DNA from: Nitrospirae bacterium MYbinv3 | GTDB lineage: Bacteria > Nitrospirota > Thermodesulfovibrionia > Thermodesulfovibrionales > Magnetobacteriaceae | NCBI GenBank assembly: GCA_002753395.1 | Contig: PEAB01000030.1 | Coordinates: 1 to 37,709 of the forward strand | Length of the DNA stretch: 37,709 bases | Direction: 5' to 3' | Shown: in pieces, positions 7,655-31,636 of the stretch | Layout of the letters: each line of letters starts with the position of its first letter | Position numbering within the stretch: position 1 is the stretch's first letter | Program-made: the position numbers and the translations under genes | The notes under the pieces: generated by a model | What the model saw: only the letters and a program-made list of their open reading frames with translations | What the model was told of the DNA's origin: nothing | Databases searched by the model: none

Positions 7655-7796
7655 AGCTATAGTTGTTCATCTTCTGGATTCCTGCCTACGCAGGAATGAC
7701 AAATACAGGCTAAAACACCCATTGCTGTCATTCCCGCGAAAGCGGGAATCCATCTTCAAAACCGCATTAAACAGCTATTTAAAAAAAAGTGCAAAA
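7655..7796. repeat. Family B repeat (MITE-like), copy 1
   Basis: The left part has CTATAGTTGTTCATCTTCTGG then ATTCCTGCCTACGCAGGAAT. The right part has GTCATTCCCGCGAAAGCGGG, then AAAAAAAAGTGCAAAAT. Each half contains its own hairpin and the halves are inverted relative to each other. The layout is the same as the better-preserved copy at 9501-9649. Confidence 0.7.
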
Positions 7797-9495: not shown

Positions 9496-9654
9496 TCAAT
9501 CTATAGTTTTGCACTTTCTGGATTCATGCTTACGCAGGAATGACATAGAACAGCCAAAAACGCTATTTGCTGTCATTCCAGCGAAAGCGGGAATCTATTT
9601 TCAAGAGCTGCAGAAAATGCAGGTTGACAAAAAAGTGCAAGAGTTATAGTCAAT
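9496..9654. mobile_element. Family B MITE, copy 2, with target duplication
   Basis: The element at 9501-9649 has imperfect terminal inverted repeats of about 20 bases (CTATAGTTTTGCACTTTCT on the left; on the right, the reverse complement of AAGTGCAAGAGTTATAG). The two internal hairpins shared by the family (TTACGCAGGAATGAC and GTCATTCCAGCGAAAGCGGG) are present. It is flanked by the direct repeat TCAAT (9496-9500 and 9650-9654), which looks like a 5-bp target-site duplication. The right duplication includes the first two bases of the next gene's start codon. It has no coding capacity and would be mobilised in trans. Confidence 0.7.
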
Positions 9655-11175: not shown

Positions 11176-11230
11176 GTATGTCATTCCTGCGAAAGCAGGA
11201 ATCCAGAAAGCATACAAGCGTAGTTACCAT
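11176..11230 (-). repeat. Family B repeat, half copy 3
   Basis: GTCATTCCTGCGAAAGCAGG, then ATCCAGAAAGC and AGTTACCAT, is the reverse complement of the left half of the copy at 21568-21722. The other half is absent, and a family D element begins six bases after it. Confidence 0.65.
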
Positions 11231-11455: not shown

Positions 11456-12721
11456 ATGGCAACTGGCAAGTTAGTAAGTAACCAGACTTCGGCTGTTGAT
11501 AATCTACTGCCTAAGGAAATAGCGCTTAAGGCAGAAAACATTGGGGTCATAAAGGCCAACCTTGACCTGTTTACATTGCTGGTACTGTCGGTTATGGCAG
11601 GGGTTTTTATAGCGTTTGGATCGGCATTTTTTACTACTGTTATAACAGGTGGTGGTGCAGGCGGGGCAATAAAGCTACCTGGGGGAATCTTAAGGCTTAT
11701 CGGTGGTGCAACTTTCTGTCTTGGTCTCATCCTGGTCGTGATAGCAGGGGCAGAGCTTTTTACAGGTAATGTCCTGATTATTATGGCTGCTGCAAGCAAG
11801 AAGATATCAGCAGACTTGGTACTTAGAAATTGGTTCATTGTTTACGTCGGTAACTTCATCGGCTCTGTTTTGACGGCTTACTTAATATATAGAAGTGGTC
11901 AATTTAAATTAATGGACGGTCTCGTTGGACTAAAGGCACTAGAAATTGCCAGTGGGAAGTGTGATATGACCTTTGTAGAGGGTCTGCTTAAAGGGATTTT
12001 CTGCAACGCACTGGTCTGTCTTGCCATATGGCTCTGCTTCTCTGGTCGTACGGTTGTGGACAAGATCAGCGGTATAATCTTTCCTATCTCGGCCTTTGTT
12101 GCTATGGGATTTGAGCACTGTGTGGCAAACATGTATTTAATACCTGTTGGTCTTTTTATTAAATCAGGAGCCAGCCCTGATTTCTGGCTAAAGATAGGTA
12201 AGTCTGCCAGCGATTTTGCCCTTCTCACGTGGGGGAATTTCTTCGTCGTTAATCTTTTAACTGTATCCATTGGAAACACATTAGGCGGCTTAATTGTTGG
12301 ATTTATGTACTGGGTAATCTACAACCGCCGTAACCTCTTAAACACCGAGAATCAAACCGAATTGTTGAAGAAACTTATAAAGGCTGGCAGAAGAAAACAT
12401 GATCGGTTTGAGGTAGAAGGCGTCGTAAGCCTGACATTCGATTCACATACTATCAAAGGGAATATCAAAAATATAAGCGAAGGCGGTATTCTATGCACCC
12501 TTACAAAACAAAGCATAATTCCCAGAATATTAGGAAAAATTGTCTGCGATATCACCTGTCCAAACGATAAGAAGCTCTCAGGCGTTCCTGGTATTGTATT
12601 AGAGCACAGTGATTTGCCAGAATTAGGAGTCGGGGTTTCGATTAAGTTTATAGAACTCTCTCCTGAAAAGAAGACTGAGATGCTTCGTTTTATTGAATCA
12701 ATAGCACCAAAGGTTGATTAA
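11456..12721 (+). CDS. Formate/nitrite-type (FNT) channel fused to a C-terminal PilZ domain
   Basis: Residues about 30-290 are a six-helix FNT channel related to FocA/NirC. Visible family signatures are GAELFTGNV (98-106), NWFIVYVGNFIGS (125-137), KGIFCNALVCLAIW (179-192) and GFEHCVANMYLIP (218-230), the last with the central pore His (His221). The protein then continues through a linker (about 291-308) into a PilZ domain (about 309-415). That domain has both c-di-GMP-binding motifs: RxxxR (Arg313-Arg317 in GRRKHDRF) and NxSxxG (Asn339-Ser341-Gly344 in NISEGG). FNT proteins are pentameric inner-membrane channels for formate, nitrite, hydrosulfide or similar anions, usually ending near residue 280; here the length is 421. 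The start ATG has a strong GGGGAGGT site. The gene is monocistronic. The domain assignment is firm; c-di-GMP gating is inference. Confidence 0.92.
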   Translation: MATGKLVSNQTSAVDNLLPKEIALKAENIGVIKANLDLFTLLVLSVMAGVFIAFGSAFFTTVITGGGAGGAIKLPGGILRLIGGATFCLGLILVVIAGAELFTGNVLIIMAAASKKISADLVLRNWFIVYVGNFIGSVLTAYLIYRSGQFKLMDGLVGLKALEIASGKCDMTFVEGLLKGIFCNALVCLAIWLCFSGRTVVDKISGIIFPISAFVAMGFEHCVANMYLIPVGLFIKSGASPDFWLKIGKSASDFALLTWGNFFVVNLLTVSIGNTLGGLIVGFMYWVIYNRRNLLNTENQTELLKKLIKAGRRKHDRFEVEGVVSLTFDSHTIKGNIKNISEGGILCTLTKQSIIPRILGKIVCDITCPNDKKLSGVPGIVLEHSDLPELGVGVSIKFIELSPEKKTEMLRFIESIAPKVD

Positions 12722-19020: not shown

Positions 19021-20802
19021 TTAATTGGCAGAGGCCAGTGATTCTATTACTTGTAAAGCGGCGTTGCCCAGCACTATACCTTCTCTTGTGATCACCAGAT
19101 GGTAGTCGGTAACGTTTTTAGACAGGAACTCGCTTCCTTTTATGATGCTGCCTAGCGTAATAGTTTTTTCATTCTTTTTAGCGTCACCATGCAGGTTCAC
19201 TTTCACCCCGGTGTTACCGTTAACATTTGTCTTTACGTCAACTATCTCCAATACTTCATTAGCAGATATCTTTATTAACTCTCCGTTGGTATACCAACGT
19301 TTAACACCTTTGTTGTGGCGCAGTACAATGTAGTCCATTCTGGGTTCTTCGACGTCCAGGTAGATGGTGCCAACAACCTTTTTCCCTGAGCTGACTTCTA
19401 TAGTATAGGACTTGCCTTGTTTATCGTTTGAATTTTGACTGTGGAGGTCTTTGGCCGTGTTGATTATGAGTCTCCGTTGTCCGCCTATGTTATTGACGTT
19501 GTTGTCAACGTATCCAATAAGGTTTACGCTTAGTTCATCCGGACTATGGTCGTTAGTAACAACGTCTATTAGTTTAATGACGTCGCCTCTGACAGTTTTA
19601 AAGTGTTCACCGTCTTTTAATACCTGCCTGAGGCCATTTGATTCAACTATCAGATACTTAAAAGAAGGGGATTCCTTATTTACGGTGCTGATAACGTCTA
19701 TTAACGCAAGACTTACCTCTGCGCATTTATAGCCGTCCTTCATAACAACCGCCTTTAGGGGAGACTCAAGGACAAACGCCCTGTTAAGGTCATTAGATGT
19801 ACCAATGCCTACTACGTCTACGGTAAGTCCACGCTTGTAGTTTGCCACAATATCTGTAATCTTCACCCTATCGCTTCTTCTGACCTTTAATTCCTCTCCG
19901 TTGTGCACGAGGTACGACTTATCGTTAACCGACACTACGAGGTAAGAAAGACGAGGGGATTTTAATTCAATGCCGGGGTTTTCTGGTATGATGTCAAGCC
20001 TTTCCATGAAGGAATTTATCACCATGCTATGGTATCTAATCTTTTGTTCGAGGTCTTTAATCTCCTTAGACGCTTCTATGCCAAAGGCGGGTATGTTGTG
20101 TGTTGAAAGGGCGTAGTACGTTGCCGACTTACGTTGTTCGAGGTGCTGTGTGTTCTTATCGAAGGTCCTGTGGTTGTTGAATCTAAAAAGGTGTTTTTTG
20201 TTGGTTATCCGCACATTTACCCTTCTTATAACATCTTTGGCGATAATGGCCAGGTTTAACACCCTGCCATCGCTTGTCCTAAAGACGTCTGTATCTGCTA
20301 TGATAGATTGGCCAAACCTGTTAGGGTTTACCAGATCGCTCTCATACCGCTCCGAGTAAAAGCCAGACCCCTCGTGGAGGTTAAGCAGAAAATCGCTTCT
20401 CTGTATAAGACCCTTGAGTATCTCTACCACGTTGTCCTCGTAGTAATCCTTTGAGTTTATGTAGTTAAACCTCCTGTTCATATCATTGTTTATAGCCCTC
20501 TTGTGCTTTATGATAGACAGAAAGTTGGCACGTGGCACGACAATGAGGTTGCCCTTTTTTAGCGTCATGTCGGCATAGAGATCGGCAGTCAAATATCCGC
20601 CAGCCTCATCTCCTTGTATACCCCCTATGATTAGAAGCGTCTTGCCGGGTTCTTTGCCAAATATCTTGTAGACATGAAGCTCATAGTCTGTACCCGCAAA
20701 GTAAACCAAATGGTCGGTCTTTGACAGAGCCTCAGAGTGCGTCAAAAGAATGATTGATATAATTGTGACAAGACACGCTAAAAACTTGGTCTGGCCTTTC
20801 AT
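19021..20802 (-). CDS. Csd4-like (M99/M14) zinc carboxypeptidase with C-terminal repeat domains
   Basis: Probable periplasmic peptidoglycan D,L-carboxypeptidase. A signal peptide (1-26) is followed by a zinc carboxypeptidase domain (about 30-270). Its first zinc motif reads GIQGDE, placing Gln63 and Glu66 as ligands with His143 (NLHEG). Gln in place of the usual His is the distinguishing mark of Helicobacter Csd4. Arg110 (MNRRF) and the general-base Glu243 (FGIEAS) are also in place. From residue about 285 there are three repeats of about 95 residues, each opening Y(L/I)(V)V and containing a KxTDIV/KLIDVV/EIVDVK strand. They make the 593-residue protein longer than Csd4 (about 440). The ATG overlaps the upstream stop (ATGA), so it is translationally coupled to the membrane coiled-coil gene. 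The specific substrate is inferred from the family. Confidence 0.8.
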   Translation of the reverse strand: MKGQTKFLACLVTIISIILLTHSEALSKTDHLVYFAGTDYELHVYKIFGKEPGKTLLIIGGIQGDEAGGYLTADLYADMTLKKGNLIVVPRANFLSIIKHKRAINNDMNRRFNYINSKDYYEDNVVEILKGLIQRSDFLLNLHEGSGFYSERYESDLVNPNRFGQSIIADTDVFRTSDGRVLNLAIIAKDVIRRVNVRITNKKHLFRFNNHRTFDKNTQHLEQRKSATYYALSTHNIPAFGIEASKEIKDLEQKIRYHSMVINSFMERLDIIPENPGIELKSPRLSYLVVSVNDKSYLVHNGEELKVRRSDRVKITDIVANYKRGLTVDVVGIGTSNDLNRAFVLESPLKAVVMKDGYKCAEVSLALIDVISTVNKESPSFKYLIVESNGLRQVLKDGEHFKTVRGDVIKLIDVVTNDHSPDELSVNLIGYVDNNVNNIGGQRRLIINTAKDLHSQNSNDKQGKSYTIEVSSGKKVVGTIYLDVEEPRMDYIVLRHNKGVKRWYTNGELIKISANEVLEIVDVKTNVNGNTGVKVNLHGDAKKNEKTITLGSIIKGSEFLSKNVTDYHLVITREGIVLGNAALQVIESLASAN

Positions 20803-21482
20803 AACTTCAGATCAACGTTTTTCTTTAAAATGATTGTTCCGTTTTCATCGTAGACTAGGAGGTACAACAGTTGTATCTTATTGAGTGTTGCGCTGAGAGT
20901 CTTGGTGAAGTGTTTTTTGATCTTTATATCAAACCCCTCTCCTGATGTGTATTTGACTGGTACACCATTTTTTACCTCTGTTGATTGCGGTACTACGGAG
21001 TATTTACCATCTGTCTTCCAGATAATAAACACATATCCGGTCATCTTTGCATCTGTCATACGAGTCTTGCTTATGTCAAATGATATGATTAGTATCTTTC
21101 GCTCCTCAAAGTTTGTTATCTCAAGGTTATCGGCATCCACCTGCCCTGTATTAACCGTCTTGTAGTCAAAGTCGTCAACCTTAACACTGCCGGAGTCTCT
21201 TACTGGGGGGGTGGTAAGAAAAGCTAGTTTTTTAATCTCCAACGCCTTTAAAGATTCCTTTACTGAGGTGTTTTCCTTTTCTAATTTGATTATCTTAAGA
21301 CTCAAGTCATTATTGATTAACCTATGTTTAAATCCAAAGTAGACAAAAGGTACAGCGCTTAAAAGGAGCAGCAACATGAAAGAGACTAAAAACACAAATA
21401 CAGATCTGGCCATCTTAAACGTCCTGGCCTTCCCACTCTTGTCCCTAAAATATATTAGTGTTATGGTTTCTTTTATTTTCAT
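20799..21482 (-). CDS. Membrane-anchored coiled-coil protein of the cell-shape cluster
   Basis: 227 residues with no family I recognise. Residues about 1-26 are basic and cytoplasmic. A single strong membrane helix spans about 27-50, a short coiled coil lies at about 57-88 (LEKENTSVKESLKALEIKK), and a beta-rich periplasmic domain runs from about 115 to 227. Type II topology with a periplasmic C-terminus is expected. Its stop overlaps the start of the Csd4-like carboxypeptidase by four bases (ATGA), and two bactofilin genes and an M23 peptidase lie upstream on the same strand. By position it may tether the carboxypeptidase to the bactofilin scaffold, as membrane partners do in Helicobacter. 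This role is inference from context only. Confidence 0.75.
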   Translation of the reverse strand: MKIKETITLIYFRDKSGKARTFKMARSVFVFLVSFMLLLLLSAVPFVYFGFKHRLINNDLSLKIIKLEKENTSVKESLKALEIKKLAFLTTPPVRDSGSVKVDDFDYKTVNTGQVDADNLEITNFEERKILIISFDISKTRMTDAKMTGYVFIIWKTDGKYSVVPQSTEVKNGVPVKYTSGEGFDIKIKKHFTKTLSATLNKIQLLYLLVYDENGTIILKKNVDLKL

Positions 21483-21567
21483 GCAAACAAACTCTTTAGT
21501 TATAAGACCTAACTGAATTTCAAATAGTCATGTATCAAAGATAAATAATTTATCTTCCTTATAATAC

Positions 21568-21722
21568 ATGGTAACTATGCTTTTACGCTTTCTGGATTCC
21601 TGCTTTCGCAGGAATGACATACAATGACACAGGGGGGGCGCACCCCCTTGGAAAACAGTTATTACTGTCATTCCCACGAAAGTGCGAATCCATGTCTTTA
21701 AACCATAAAAAGAAAATTACCA
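21568..21722. repeat. Family B repeat (MITE-like), copy 4
   Basis: ATGGTAACT at the left and AATTACCAT at the right are inverted ends. Inside are the two family hairpins (ATTCCTGCTTTCGCAGGAAT and GTCATTCCCACGAAAGTGCG) and an additional GGGGGGGCGCACCCCC hairpin (21632-21649). It splits the cell-shape gene cluster between the second bactofilin and the membrane coiled-coil gene. Its hairpins could reduce read-through. Confidence 0.7.
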
Positions 21723-21757
21723 TACTTTTTTAAGAGGATACATAAAAATCCATTTCC

Positions 21758-22132
21758 TTAACTCTTATTCTCTATTAGCTGCCTTACGTCGTTATCCCGT
21801 AGGCTTGCCATCATACACTGCCCTACAAACTGTGCCCCTGGGTATACAATAATGACAGGTGTGATTATATCGCCAAACATCCTGGCCCTGGTGTGTAGTT
21901 CTACCTTCCTGAGGGCCTCAACAACGCCTCTGACCTCACCAGAGATGATAGCGGTGTCGACCTTGATCCTCGACTCTAAAACACCATCCTCCCCTACCAC
22001 TAACGTCCCCGTGGCCTCAATCTCTCCTTTAAACCTGCCATCCACCCTCAACACACCATCAAATGATAGTTTACCCGCAATGTCAACTCCAGCGCCGATT
22101 AAACCGTTTATATTATTGTCATTTCCTGCCAT
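21758..22132 (-). CDS. Bactofilin (CcmA-type), second copy
   Basis: Bactofilins form nucleotide-independent filaments that direct cell-wall enzymes. This 124-residue protein is almost entirely the right-handed beta-helix core (about residues 10-112), with short six-residue strand repeats rich in Val, Ile and Gly: LIGAGVDIAGKLSFDGVLRV, FKGEIEATGTLVVGEDG, ISGEVRGVVEAL and so on. The terminal extensions are short, as is normal. It lies 25 bases downstream of the first bactofilin on the same strand. Two adjacent paralogues may co-polymerise or have distinct partners. The ribosome-binding site is weak, consistent with translational coupling. Confidence 0.9.
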   Translation of the reverse strand: MAGNDNNINGLIGAGVDIAGKLSFDGVLRVDGRFKGEIEATGTLVVGEDGVLESRIKVDTAIISGEVRGVVEALRKVELHTRARMFGDIITPVIIVYPGAQFVGQCMMASLRDNDVRQLIENKS

Positions 22133-22157
22133 TTTAATAGTTACTTATGTAATAAAT

Positions 22158-22538
22158 CTACTCTATTTCCTGTTTGAATGAGACAGATATCTCACCTTCT
22201 ACCTCGCGCTTTTGCATCTTTGAACGGCCCTCAAACAGTCCGCCCTCAAGGATGGCTAACTTTGAGGTATAGACGTCTCCAAAGACCTTGCCCTTTGTCA
22301 TAATCTCTATGTACTCTCTTGCGTGGATGTTCCCTTCTACCAGACCGCCAATTATGACTCCGTTTGAGTGTATATCTCCTTTCAGATGGCCTTTTTCACC
22401 AACGACAACCCAGTCGGCCTTGACATTTCCCTCAAACTCGCCATCCAGGCGAAGGGTGCCCTTTAATTCTACCGTCCCCTTTATCTGAGTACTGACGCCA
22501 ATAAGCGTCTCTATCCTATCGTGTTTTTTACCGAACAT
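22158..22538 (-). CDS. Bactofilin (CcmA-type), first copy
   Basis: A 126-residue bactofilin. A short basic N-terminus (MFGKKHDR) is followed by the beta-helix core (TLIGVSTQIKGTVELKGTLR, FEGNVKADWVVVGEKGHLKG, and further turns to about residue 100) and a charged tail. The MFGKK start resembles the membrane-associating N-termini of many bactofilins. I chose ATG 22538 because GAGG lies five bases upstream; an in-frame ATG at 22553 has no ribosome-binding site. The gene begins 37 bases after the M23 peptidase stop and precedes the second bactofilin, forming the scaffold part of a cell-shape operon. Confidence 0.92.
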   Translation of the reverse strand: MFGKKHDRIETLIGVSTQIKGTVELKGTLRLDGEFEGNVKADWVVVGEKGHLKGDIHSNGVIIGGLVEGNIHAREYIEIMTKGKVFGDVYTSKLAILEGGLFEGRSKMQKREVEGEISVSFKQEIE

Positions 22539-22575
22539 ATCACCCTCAAGCATCTTAAATCATAGTTAACGTGCA

Positions 22576-23412
22576 TTATTCCTTCGCCAAGAACGTCATA
22601 GGATCGACGGGATTGTTATTCTTCCAGACCTCGTAGTGCACATGAGGTCCAGTGGAGTTGCCTGTAGAACCAACGTAACTGATCACGTCCCCGCGTTTTA
22701 CTCGCTGACCAACCTTAACCAGGATCTCTTTGTTATGGGCATAGCACGTAGTGTAACCAAAGCCGTGCTCTATAACAACCAGATTGCCGCTGCCTCCAGA
22801 CCTCTCAGCGAAACTCACGATGCCATCGGCTGTGGCCCGTACTGGAGTGCCAGAAGATACTGCCAGGTCCAGTCCAGAGTGAAATTCGCTCCTGCCGGTC
22901 TTCGGGTGTATCCGCCAACCGAATTCCGAACTAATATTGGAGGTACTTACGGGATAACCATGTGGGGTAGCATTGTAGAAGCTCTTCTGTTTGTTGAGAT
23001 ATTCCTTGATTTCTCCTACACCCTTGACGGATTTTTCTATCTGCTTTTTTAATAACTCCATGTCGATTGAACCTGAATCATCGGTTTCGAGATTATTGAA
23101 AACGTCCTCTTTGCTCTTAAAGGCAAATAGTTTTTTAAACTGTACCTCTGCTTTTTTGAGTGAATCCATGGTAGTGTGCAGTTCAGAAAACTGATTGTAA
23201 TAGTAATCAGCCTTAAGTTTGATATCGTTATATTCTTTTGTCTTCACCCCTACCGATACCATATACCCCGTAAAAGAAATCCATATGGCTACCAGCGTAA
23301 CAATACCGACAGAGGGGAGCTTCATCCTATATGTTTTTTCGTTACTATGCGGGATTATCAGTATTGTTATTGGAGTAAATAAGTGACGTATAAATTTCTT
23401 AAACCTTAGCAT
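22576..23412 (-). CDS. Membrane-anchored M23 (LytM-type) peptidoglycan endopeptidase
   Basis: 278 residues from ATG 23412, which has GGAG six bases upstream; a TTG two codons earlier is less likely. A basic cytoplasmic N-terminus precedes one membrane helix (about 33-56), a coiled-coil stretch (about 60-145) and the LytM domain (about 150-278). The zinc/catalytic set is complete: His178 and Asp182 (HSGLD), His226 (YAHN), and His257/His259 (HVHYE). It is therefore likely an active D,D-endopeptidase cutting peptidoglycan crosslinks in the periplasm. A membrane-anchored M23 enzyme next to bactofilins is the arrangement of Helicobacter Csd1/CcmA and of other bactofilin loci. It is the first gene of this cluster. 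Confidence 0.93.
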   Translation of the reverse strand: MLRFKKFIRHLFTPITILIIPHSNEKTYRMKLPSVGIVTLVAIWISFTGYMVSVGVKTKEYNDIKLKADYYYNQFSELHTTMDSLKKAEVQFKKLFAFKSKEDVFNNLETDDSGSIDMELLKKQIEKSVKGVGEIKEYLNKQKSFYNATPHGYPVSTSNISSEFGWRIHPKTGRSEFHSGLDLAVSSGTPVRATADGIVSFAERSGGSGNLVVIEHGFGYTTCYAHNKEILVKVGQRVKRGDVISYVGSTGNSTGPHVHYEVWKNNNPVDPMTFLAKE

Positions 23413-27337: not shown

Positions 27338-27811
27338 CTAATGGGCAGGTAAACCGTCTAGCAATTTATCTACATCTTTCTTTTTAGTTTTAATCTGCTT
27401 TCTGTTATCACTTCCCTTGTAAGAAATGTGTACCCAACCACTATCAGGGTTACCTAAAACATAATTTTCTAGAATTAATTGGTCAAAATCCAAGTTTTCT
27501 GAAACCCATTTCGCCAGGTCATAATTTGATATACCTGGTATTTCAATATCCATTGCCTGACCAACCATATGTTGGCTTTTACTCGAACTATTTCTTACAG
27601 CCTTATTGAGTTCAGGACATCTATACCCACTATTGACGATTATATTATGACCAAACTTTAAAAATAGCTTCTCATAAACATTCTCTGCTAATAATCTTAA
27701 ATTATCTATTATCTCTTCTGACTTAGGAGTATTGTCGATGCCAAGTAGTATAGCTTTATCAGATTTTATCATAGTAGACAGATCTAAATTAGGTGAAAGT
27801 TTTGTGCTCAA
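27338..27811 (-). CDS. M15-type peptidase (Peptidase_M15_3-like)
   Basis: 157 residues with the zinc-site layout of M15 D-alanyl-D-alanine carboxypeptidases and phage endolysins: SGYRCPELNKAV, then QHMVGQAMDIE (His ligand and Asp ligand seven residues apart), and the final His in GWVHISY. This group is frequent in phage tail/lysis modules and as small cellular enzymes. There is no signal peptide, so it would act only if released or exported by another route, as phage enzymes do. No other phage gene is nearby, although a tRNA gene, a common integration site, is about 110 bases away. The start is taken as TTG 27811, ten bases after GGAGG; Met14 is the alternative. It may be a lone phage relic. 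Confidence 0.75.
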   Translation of the reverse strand: MSTKLSPNLDLSTMIKSDKAILLGIDNTPKSEEIIDNLRLLAENVYEKLFLKFGHNIIVNSGYRCPELNKAVRNSSSKSQHMVGQAMDIEIPGISNYDLAKWVSENLDFDQLILENYVLGNPDSGWVHISYKGSDNRKQIKTKKKDVDKLLDGLPAH

Positions 27812-28237: not shown

Positions 28238-29716
28238 TCAGGTGATAACCTTGTATATCTCCATATCTTTTTCACCTTTTGGGGTCTTTATCCTGCTTAC
28301 AAAGGAGGTTTTAAAATCATCCTTTACCTGCTCGTAGGTAAGGCGGCCAATAAAGATACCCCCTGGTTCGGCCAATGACTCAAGTCTTGCGGCAACATTA
28401 ACCACATCGCCTAATACTGTGTATTCCATCCTGCGGGCCGACCCCATGTAGCCGGTAATCACCTCTCCAGTGTTTATACCGATCCTGATATCAAACTGTC
28501 TTCTTTTATCAAGGCTGGCCTTAAAGGATTTTAATTCTTTCTGCATATTTATGGCCGCAAGCACTGCCTTCTTGGCATGATAGGGTTGAGGGATAGGGGC
28601 ACCAAACACGGCCATAACGGCATCCCCTATGTATTTATCTAAGGTACCGTCGTAATTGAACACAATCTCTGTCATGATCTCAAAATAATCGTTGAGCAGC
28701 CTGGCTATTTCGTGTGGGTCTAGCCTCTCCGAAAGTGCGGTAAACCCCTTGATGTCAGAAAACAGAATTGAGGCGTCTAACTTTTCTGCATCAAAAGAGA
28801 TCTGCCCCTTTTTCCTGCTGTCGGCGGTTATCTTTGCAACCACATTGGGGGATAGGAAACGCTCCAGGTTGCTCTTTACCACCGCCTCCTCCTTGATCTT
28901 TTCATAAAGGGATATACGTTCTATACCGGAGGATACGTTGTTAGCTATAGATGTAAGCATGGTCAAGTCATTTTCGTTAAACTGCTCAGACCGTCTGTCC
29001 TCAAGGTAAATTACTCCAATAATGCTGTCATTTTTCGTAATAGGAGCACACATTATAGCCTGTACGCCCCGAGAGGTAGTCGTGGTCGAATGACCATTCT
29101 CGGTATTAGTGATAAGTGCCTGTTTACCACTGATCACTCTTGTTACAACGCTCTGGCTGTAAATATTATCATCTGCGCGGCTGGCACGGCAACGCAACAG
29201 ACAATTCTTGTCGTTTATGAGCAACAGGCTCTTTTCCGCCTTTATGGTCAAATGAAGCATATCCATTATGTACTTGTAAAACTCGTTCAGGTCTGTGACC
29301 TTCATCAACTTTTCGCTTATCTGGTTGATAACAAGGTAGCTCATATCGATGGTCTTGGATAATTCAAGTTCCTGGTAAACAATAGTTGGATCGGTTGAAG
29401 TCAGCTCGCAGGCCTGATCTTCCTCAAACAGGAGAGTGTTTAATCCTATGCTTATCCTGTCGCCATGTCTAAGCCGTACCCTCTTAATCTCCTGATCGTT
29501 GACGTAGGTGTGGTTCTTGCTGCCTAGATCCTCTATATAGTAATTATTATTTTTCAAAAATATCTTTGCGTGATGACGTGATACAGTCTTGTCGTCAAAG
29601 CATATATCTTTATGCGATATTCCAGAAGTCATGGTTTTACCTATGGTTACCACATCATTTTCTATTGGGTAGATCTCATCCTCCCTGCCTTCTCTCTTAA
29701 TTATTAATATAGGCAT
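28238..29716 (-). CDS. FHA-GAF-class III adenylate cyclase
   Basis: 492 residues, soluble. An FHA phosphothreonine-binding domain (about 1-97; Gly26, SRHH at 46-49, SKNHTYVN) is followed by a GAF domain (about 130-270), a short coiled coil, and a class III nucleotide cyclase domain (about 310-490). The metal Asp residues are Asp321 (FSDIKGF) and Asp365 (KYIGD). Lys361 and Thr433 (MEYT) occupy the purine-specifying positions and point to ATP rather than GTP. Asn440 and Arg444 (NVAAR) supply the transition-state pair. It should therefore make cAMP under the control of a Ser/Thr-kinase partner (FHA) and a small ligand (GAF). No kinase gene is adjacent. Start ATG 29716 has AAGGA just upstream. 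Confidence 0.93.
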   Translation of the reverse strand: MPILIIKREGREDEIYPIENDVVTIGKTMTSGISHKDICFDDKTVSRHHAKIFLKNNNYYIEDLGSKNHTYVNDQEIKRVRLRHGDRISIGLNTLLFEEDQACELTSTDPTIVYQELELSKTIDMSYLVINQISEKLMKVTDLNEFYKYIMDMLHLTIKAEKSLLLINDKNCLLRCRASRADDNIYSQSVVTRVISGKQALITNTENGHSTTTTSRGVQAIMCAPITKNDSIIGVIYLEDRRSEQFNENDLTMLTSIANNVSSGIERISLYEKIKEEAVVKSNLERFLSPNVVAKITADSRKKGQISFDAEKLDASILFSDIKGFTALSERLDPHEIARLLNDYFEIMTEIVFNYDGTLDKYIGDAVMAVFGAPIPQPYHAKKAVLAAINMQKELKSFKASLDKRRQFDIRIGINTGEVITGYMGSARRMEYTVLGDVVNVAARLESLAEPGGIFIGRLTYEQVKDDFKTSFVSRIKTPKGEKDMEIYKVIT

Positions 29717-31117: not shown

Positions 31118-31636
31118 ATGAGAATTACACCGTTAGATATCCAGCAAAAGCAGTTTCCGGTTAAATTCAGGGGTTTTGATGTTGAAGAGGTATACGCATT
31201 TTTAGAGGTGCTGAGAGAAGAGATGGAGGAGCTGCTTCGAGAAAACACCTCATTAAAAGAGCAATTACACATTATTGAAGGACAACTGAGGGAGCACAAA
31301 AACATGGAATCAACCCTCAGAGAAACCCTGATTACAGCACAGCAGATGATAGAGGCCTATAAGGCCAATGCACGTAAGGAGGCAGAACTTATAACCAGAG
31401 AGGCAGAGCTCAAGGCTGATGAGATAATTAAGAAGGCTCAGGAGAAGGTCGTAAAAATACACGAGGATATAGTCGACCTTCGAGGCATCAGGAGACACTT
31501 TAAAGAAGAGATTAAACGGCTTGCAGATAAACTCCTCAGGGAGATAGAGTTTGACAAGGAACGAGAGGGTGAATCAGACTTCTGGGGAGACAACAGAGGT
31601 CAGGAGGGGGCAAGAAAGGAAATTGAGCAAGTATAA
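31118..31636 (+). CDS. divIVA: DivIVA-domain coiled-coil protein
   Basis: 172 residues. The N-terminal DivIVA membrane-binding signature (MRITPLDIQQKQF, then FRGFDVEEVYAFLE, residues 1-31) is followed by an extended coiled coil (about 32-145) and a short charged tail. DivIVA proteins bind negatively curved membrane at poles and septa and recruit division or cell-wall proteins. Gram-negative relatives of this length occur in Nitrospirota and deltaproteobacteria, usually near yggT. The ATG follows GGGGGC-type sequence with only a modest ribosome-binding site. Its 3' end overlaps the chosen hisS start by 14 bases, indicating co-translation. Confidence 0.92.
   Translation: MRITPLDIQQKQFPVKFRGFDVEEVYAFLEVLREEMEELLRENTSLKEQLHIIEGQLREHKNMESTLRETLITAQQMIEAYKANARKEAELITREAELKADEIIKKAQEKVVKIHEDIVDLRGIRRHFKEEIKRLADKLLREIEFDKEREGESDFWGDNRGQEGARKEIEQV

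Follow-up and report, generated by a model that had tools for sequence, protein, structure and literature searches.

A conserved bactofilin gene cassette with a Csd4-like carboxypeptidase and a candidate membrane adaptor in Candidatus Magnetobacterium

What task do bactofilins perform when their genes are gathered with those of two cell wall peptidases and a membrane protein of no known family? The question is raised by five adjacent genes, all on the minus strand, at positions 19021 to 23412 of a contig of 37,709 nucleotides (PEAB01000030.1; hereafter the window) from Nitrospirae bacterium MYbinv3. The host genome belongs to Candidatus Magnetobacterium (Nitrospirota), the genus of Candidatus Magnetobacterium casense. 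An initial annotation of the sequence correctly placed genes for an M23 metallopeptidase, two bactofilins (BacA and BacB), a membrane protein (MP) and an M99 carboxypeptidase, and read them as a Helicobacter-like Csd/CcmA module that makes cells curved or helical. We consider it somewhat probable that the locus is a bactofilin-scaffolded peptidoglycan-editing cassette of two client systems that serves elongated cell shape, with MP as adaptor. The cassette is real, conserved and apparently composite. It consists of known parts and one unnamed protein, and the adaptor step would be its new part. No description of MP or of the cassette in Nitrospirota was found in the literature searched, which is a partial collection.

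The carboxypeptidase and the conserved gene order

As the initial annotation supposed, the carboxypeptidase (19021..20802, minus strand) is a member of the M99/Csd4 group. It scores 122.3 bits against the Peptidase_M99 model (PF17033; cut-off 27) and matches Csd4 in the PDB at 1.3e-29, or at 8.5e-43 with a profile of M99 relatives. The annotated Gln63, Glu66 and His143 stand at the expected positions, where a pairwise alignment pairs them with Gln46, Glu49 and His128 of Csd4. Similarly, R102, N109, R110 and E243 are the counterparts of Csd4 Arg86, Asn93, Arg94 and Glu222 (Csd4 residues taken from PMC4220969). All of these are invariant in 14 aligned sequences and lie within the catalytic domain (19990..20649, minus strand), which conserves the Csd4 residues for the metal, the scissile bond and the meso-diaminopimelate carboxylate. 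Because the metal ligands and the substrate and catalytic residues of Csd4 are invariant, the secreted enzyme is predicted to have D,L-carboxypeptidase activity on tripeptides.

The window protein shares its catalytic domain, its Gln-Glu-His metal ligands and the Arg86/Asn93/Arg94/Glu222 equivalents with Helicobacter pylori Csd4 and Campylobacter Pgp1 (MEROPS M99). It differs from them in a longer C-terminal region (593 residues versus ~438) and in its operon with bactofilins and MP. Members of M99 have a carboxypeptidase domain, a beta-barrel in the centre and an Ig-like domain at the C-terminus; for the window protein, the Peptidase_M99_C model gives 14.5 bits (cut-off 27), and there is a weak second match to the Csd4 C-terminus at residues 417-482. 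Csd4 homologues have been noted in Delta- and Epsilonproteobacteria, and the nearer of these are confined to rods of curved or helical form (PMC3310797). The earlier emphasis on an unrelated phylum holds in that the enzyme is new for Nitrospirota, but Deltaproteobacteria had earlier supplied examples of Csd4-like proteins beyond Campylobacterota (PMC3310797).

The expectation that the cluster is conserved is borne out in the family of Magnetobacterium (f1 in our searches). The order M23-bactofilin-bactofilin-MP-M99 repeats in nine further genomes of this family. In one of the nine, a Csd6-like gene separates BacB from MP, and in one BacB is disrupted. Genome G007 has the arrangement M23-bactofilin-Csd6-MP-M99. 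According to a genome-wide search, the window genome encodes two bactofilins and one M99 in total, all at the cassette. This exclusive location and the repeated order indicate that the five-gene grouping is not due to chance. In genome G014 (L026/L036), BacB is broken by a stop codon and the remaining cassette is intact. MP itself is present in 11 of 60 relatives searched, all 11 within the family, and two further matches are marginal and partial. The presence of bactofilin was rejected as an indicator of MP in genomes beyond the family, where it does not discriminate: 47 of 50 have a bactofilin, with or without MP.

A wider scan for M99 covered 84,980 species genomes, and its best 80 loci, ranked by likeness to the Magnetobacterium family and many of them cut by contig ends, were compared. 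MP directly precedes M99 in 65 of these 80 loci, with a median spacing of -4 bp, and a Csd6-like YkuD protein is encoded near M99 in 67. The Csd6 identity was assigned by the Pfam YkuD and Cds6_C models in ten proteins scanned, and by profile in the remainder. These frequencies imply that MP, M99 and Csd6 form a functional unit. A bactofilin gene is found in 39/80 loci and an M23 gene in 9/80; in 30/80, MP is present and a bactofilin is not seen in the stretch covered, many such stretches being cut short. The block bactofilin-(Csd6)-MP-Csd4 recurs in deltaproteobacterial and other genomes.

In the window, the translational coupling annotated for MP and M99 is evident at the junction ...AAGTTATGAAAGG, an ATGA overlap that places the M99 start codon inside the MP stop. 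A promoter scan gave no excess over shuffles, and the operon structure is therefore deduced from gene order and spacing.

Of the Helicobacter-type shape proteins, the window genome encodes the Csd4, Csd6, CcmA and M23 types. The proposed likeness to the Helicobacter module stands in that a Csd4-like and an M23 enzyme are combined with bactofilins of the CcmA kind, and further parts were missing from the earlier list. These are a hairpin in the MP tail, predicted to resemble the known bactofilin-binding one, and Csd6-like genes, which sit in the same operon in relatives of the window genome. Csd6, Pgp2 and Bd1075 are L,D-carboxypeptidases with YkuD and NTF2-like domains. A gene of this type is present in sister operons and, unlinked, on another contig of the window genome. 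Unlike Csd6, Pgp2 and Bd1075, some of the sister-operon proteins carry an extra C-terminal MP-like domain. In another family of the same order (f6), a gene for a 536-residue protein with weak bactofilin-like similarity (L127:687-2297) lies convergent with a Csd6-M99 pair.

The two bactofilins and their gene blocks

The M23 metallopeptidase (22576..23412, minus strand; PF01551 127.9 bits, cut-off 28.7) is LmdC-like and has the membrane anchor ascribed to it, with a cytoplasmic tail, a transmembrane helix, a coiled coil and a C-terminal M23 domain in which H178, D182, H257 and H259 are identified by alignment. Its AlphaFold model predicts a hairpin of strands 15-19 and 28-32 just before the transmembrane helix, with a helix from residue 35 (local predicted local distance difference test (pLDDT) scores of ~66-77). 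This hairpin (residues 15-32; 23317..23370, minus strand) is a candidate bactofilin-binding element. It occupies a position equivalent to the cytoplasmic hairpin of Rhodospirillum LmdC, which is required for recruitment by bactofilin (PMC10945521).

Bactofilin-M23 gene pairs occur in 226 species (PMC10945521). As in the LmdC-BacA modules of Hyphomonas neptunium and Rhodospirillum rubrum (PMC10945521), the window has a bactofilin gene adjoining one for a bitopic M23 peptidase, in which a cytoplasmic beta-hairpin is predicted and is followed by a transmembrane helix, a coiled coil and a C-terminal M23 domain. Beyond what these modules contain, the window encodes another bactofilin, an M99 carboxypeptidase and a bitopic protein that is not an enzyme and has a similar tail. 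A full-length M23 gene adjoins a bactofilin gene in 14 other genomes of the order, in which M23-BacA is the usual pair, without MP and mostly without M99. A masked N stretch lies beside an M23 tail and a bactofilin fragment at L139 (G022), so gene presence is not scorable there.

BacA (22158..22538, minus strand) and BacB (21758..22132, minus strand) score 90.8 and 91.0 bits, respectively, against PF04519 (cut-off 27.9), and they are distinguished by their N-termini and by their positions in the bactofilin tree. The longest BacA open reading frame starts at 22553, but the true start is probably at 22538, from which the N-terminus reads MFGKKHDR. An N-terminal MFxKK is common to the BacA proteins of the window and of most relatives, and it resembles the membrane-targeting peptide MFSKQAKS of Caulobacter BacA (PMC12448750). 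BacB of the Magnetobacterium family lacks this peptide, which suggests that it relies on MP or BacA for membrane contact. Relatives of BacB encoded in sister operons, by contrast, begin with an MF-type sequence.

In the bactofilin tree, BacB falls into a single clade with the bactofilins of BacB-Csd6-MP-M99 operons (99/100). BacA of most family members forms a separate clade (100/100), near the M23-linked bactofilins of f6. The BacA, BacB and f6 clades fall within one set (98/93), in which the joining point of the long BacB branch is not resolved. In the M99 tree, the enzymes of the family group with those of the same sister operons (97/90) and are separate from the M99 of f6, a family of the same order. 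Because the trees place BacB and M99 with the sister operons and BacA elsewhere, the cassette seems to have been assembled from two blocks, M23-BacA and BacB-MP-M99.

MP as a candidate adaptor

MP (20799..21482, minus strand) was annotated as a new membrane coiled-coil protein, and it indeed matches no Pfam or NCBIfam family; only weak hits, spread over unrelated families, were obtained. Hydropathy and the AlphaFold model describe a bitopic protein with a short cytoplasmic N-terminus. The model consists of a hairpin (strands 6-12 and 19-25; pLDDT ~75-87), a helix spanning residues 26-89 and, after a disordered segment, a beta-sandwich at residues 115-222. The predicted layout is thus a hairpin before the membrane helix, then a coiled coil and a periplasmic immunoglobulin-like (Ig-like) domain. 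The hairpin (residues 6-25; 21408..21467, minus strand) belongs to a tail with the invariant residues T8, Y11 and G17. The predicted periplasmic sandwich domain is placed at residues 110-227 (20802..21155, minus strand). VIA-align relates it to Ig-like domains of glycoside hydrolase family 2 (GH2) enzymes with Z ~10, and Foldseek returned low TM-scores for MP. Because the alignment points only to a common Ig-like fold, no function is read from it. The MP profile also matches the C-termini of Csd6-like proteins in L030 and L035-L040, so MP and Csd6 appear to share a periplasmic domain in these loci.

MP and the M23 peptidase share a predicted hairpin-transmembrane-coiled-coil N-terminus, and their tails are predicted to be alike in topology and weakly alike in sequence. 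A profile of 55 MP tails, all from outside the Magnetobacterium family, ranks M23 tails above a background of 164 other N-terminal transmembrane segments (Mann-Whitney p 4e-8 for the family and p 2e-9 for the order, computed on rows that are not independent). Shuffled tails equal the observed score in 0.5-10% of cases. Outside the phylum, among M23 proteins from plasmid records, the profile gives one weak match, to an Acetoanaerobium M23 encoded beside a bactofilin. A universal tail sequence motif was rejected, since the Vibrio, Caballeronia and Shinella M23 tails are without a match and that of Acetoanaerobium is weak. A small transmembrane coiled-coil protein, possibly an MP analogue, is encoded between the M23 and bactofilin genes of Caballeronia (L147:1736-2092).

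H. pylori Csd5 is a transmembrane protein without an enzymatic domain that binds CcmA (PMC9507126) and Csd4 (PMC4220969). H. pylori Csd6 seems to bind none of CcmA, Csd5 and Csd7 (PMC9507126). MP is likewise bitopic and non-enzymatic, with a short cytoplasmic N-terminus. Csd5 connects CcmA with Csd4 in Helicobacter, and by analogy we propose that MP may link bactofilin to the trimming enzymes. The comparison concerns role only, and MP is not classed as a Csd5. Csd5 has a periplasmic SH3 domain in contrast to the predicted Ig-like sandwich of MP, in which a Pfam search found no SH3 match, and reports of Csd5 are limited to H. pylori and H. acinonychis.

In the proposed mechanism, BacA would lie under the inner membrane via its MFGKK peptide and recruit the M23 endopeptidase through the hairpin in the cytoplasmic tail of the enzyme, in the manner of LmdC and its BacA partner. 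The role of the M23 enzyme would be to cleave cross-links between stem peptides. MP, or joint assembly with BacA, would keep BacB at the membrane, and BacB would recruit MP through the similar hairpin. The periplasmic Ig-like domain of MP would dock the secreted M99 enzyme and, in relatives, also Csd6, and tripeptides would be trimmed to dipeptides beside the filament. Cleavage and trimming at this local scale would preserve the elongated shape of the cell and, in some carriers, may also contribute curvature.

The same genes might serve two separate functions that happen to be neighbours, an LmdC-BacA morphogenesis pair and an MP-M99 trimming pair, with MP never touching bactofilin and merely anchoring or regulating M99 in the periplasm. 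Such independence would agree with the weak tail similarity, with the standing of the M23-BacA pair by itself elsewhere in the order, and with the many Deltaproteobacteria in which MP-M99 has no adjacent bactofilin. However, the MP tail is conserved and has a predicted hairpin form, 35 of the other loci have a bactofilin next to MP-M99 and, within the family, MP is absent where bactofilin is absent. We regard two unconnected functions as unlikely.

A broader generalization of the adaptor proposal is quite possible and is put forward tentatively. MP may found a widespread family of non-enzymatic bactofilin clients, in which an LmdC-like hairpin brings Csd4- and Csd6-type enzymes to filaments in several phyla. 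If this is true, the MP family would be a general counterpart of the Helicobacter-specific Csd5. The coupling of filaments to wall trimming, so far known only from Helicobacter, would then be testable in many other bacteria.

Cell shape of carriers and non-carriers

Seven genomes of another genus of the same family (g3) are without bactofilin, MP and M99; six of the seven keep a Csd6-like gene, and full-length M23 is also absent in two g3 genomes tested. Candidatus Magnetomicrobium cryptolimnococcus (G008), which is coccoid (PMC8353452), lacks the bactofilins, full-length M23 and MP and keeps M99 and Csd6. Described Magnetobacterium species are rods (PMC10278575, PMC8353452). Since Magnetobacterium are rods and their coccoid relative is without M23, both bactofilins and MP, maintenance of elongated shape fits better and, on these few cases, the common factor is better described as elongation than as curvature. 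The cassette offers a genomic marker: in one magnetotactic lineage, coccoid shape coincides with its absence.

The curvature or helicity machine of the initial annotation, in which the cassette would bend the cell in the manner of the Helicobacter Csd/CcmA programme, is only partly supported, since described members of the host genus are rods. In its favour, the genome encodes bactofilin and M23 along with Csd4-like and Csd6-like enzymes, and the Csd6-type Bd1075 bends Bdellovibrio (PMC8938487). Two named carriers are also vibrioid: Candidatus Magnetocorallium XS-1 (L041; PMC10278575), which has the cassette with Csd6 inside the operon, and Desulfocarbo indianensis (L054; PMC4559730), with the gene order Csd6-MP-M99-Bac. 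The anticipated correlation with shape is seen in these two but not in the described Magnetobacterium carriers, which are rods with the same genus-level cassette, an outcome named beforehand as refuting. The Csd6-like gene is, moreover, unlinked in the window genome. Bending as the task of the cassette is thus improbable.

Bactofilins have varied local tasks in other bacteria, but a task other than overall shape, for example at a wall patch of the pole or flagellum, in positioning the magnetosome chain or in recycling the wall, is very improbable here, as flagellar or magnetosome genes were not recognised near the cassette within the window and many Desulfobacterota bins that are not described as magnetotactic contain the same block.

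Several observations weigh against the favoured reading of an elongation cassette with MP as adaptor. Some M99 operons are without MP although the genome has a bactofilin, and bactofilin was not found in two MP-bearing metagenome bins. The likeness between the MP and M23 tails is weak, covering a short stretch at 3-6 bits, and was outscored by two unrelated proteins; the MP-tail profile has no match in the M23 tails from Vibrio, Caballeronia and Shinella. The C-terminal region of the M99 protein resembles the Csd4 C-terminal domain weakly. The joint absence of bactofilins, M23 and MP rests on two lineages and, as Magnetobacterium are rods, an effect on curvature is not indicated.

Other features of the window

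The 275-bp intergenic gap between BacB and MP (21483..21757, minus strand) contains a repetitive extragenic palindromic (REP)-like palindrome at 21593-21619. Six copies of this palindrome, TGTCATTCCTGCGAAAGCAGGAATCCA, are present in the window with up to 3 mismatches, compared with none expected by chance. The others lie at 7675-7701, 7726-7752, 9519-9545, 9571-9597 and 11179-11205, and four of the copies form two opposite-facing pairs ~50 bp apart.

A possible further wall enzyme, an M15-type peptidase related to MepK, is encoded ~4 kb from the cassette (27338-27811, minus strand). A DivIVA-family protein (31118-31636, plus strand; 137.7 bits) is encoded directly upstream of a histidyl-tRNA-synthetase-like gene. 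Two proteins of the window have unusual domain combinations: one is a formate/nitrite transporter with a C-terminal PilZ domain in a single chain (11456-12721, plus strand), and the other is an FHA-GAF-guanylate/adenylate cyclase fusion (28238-29716, minus strand).

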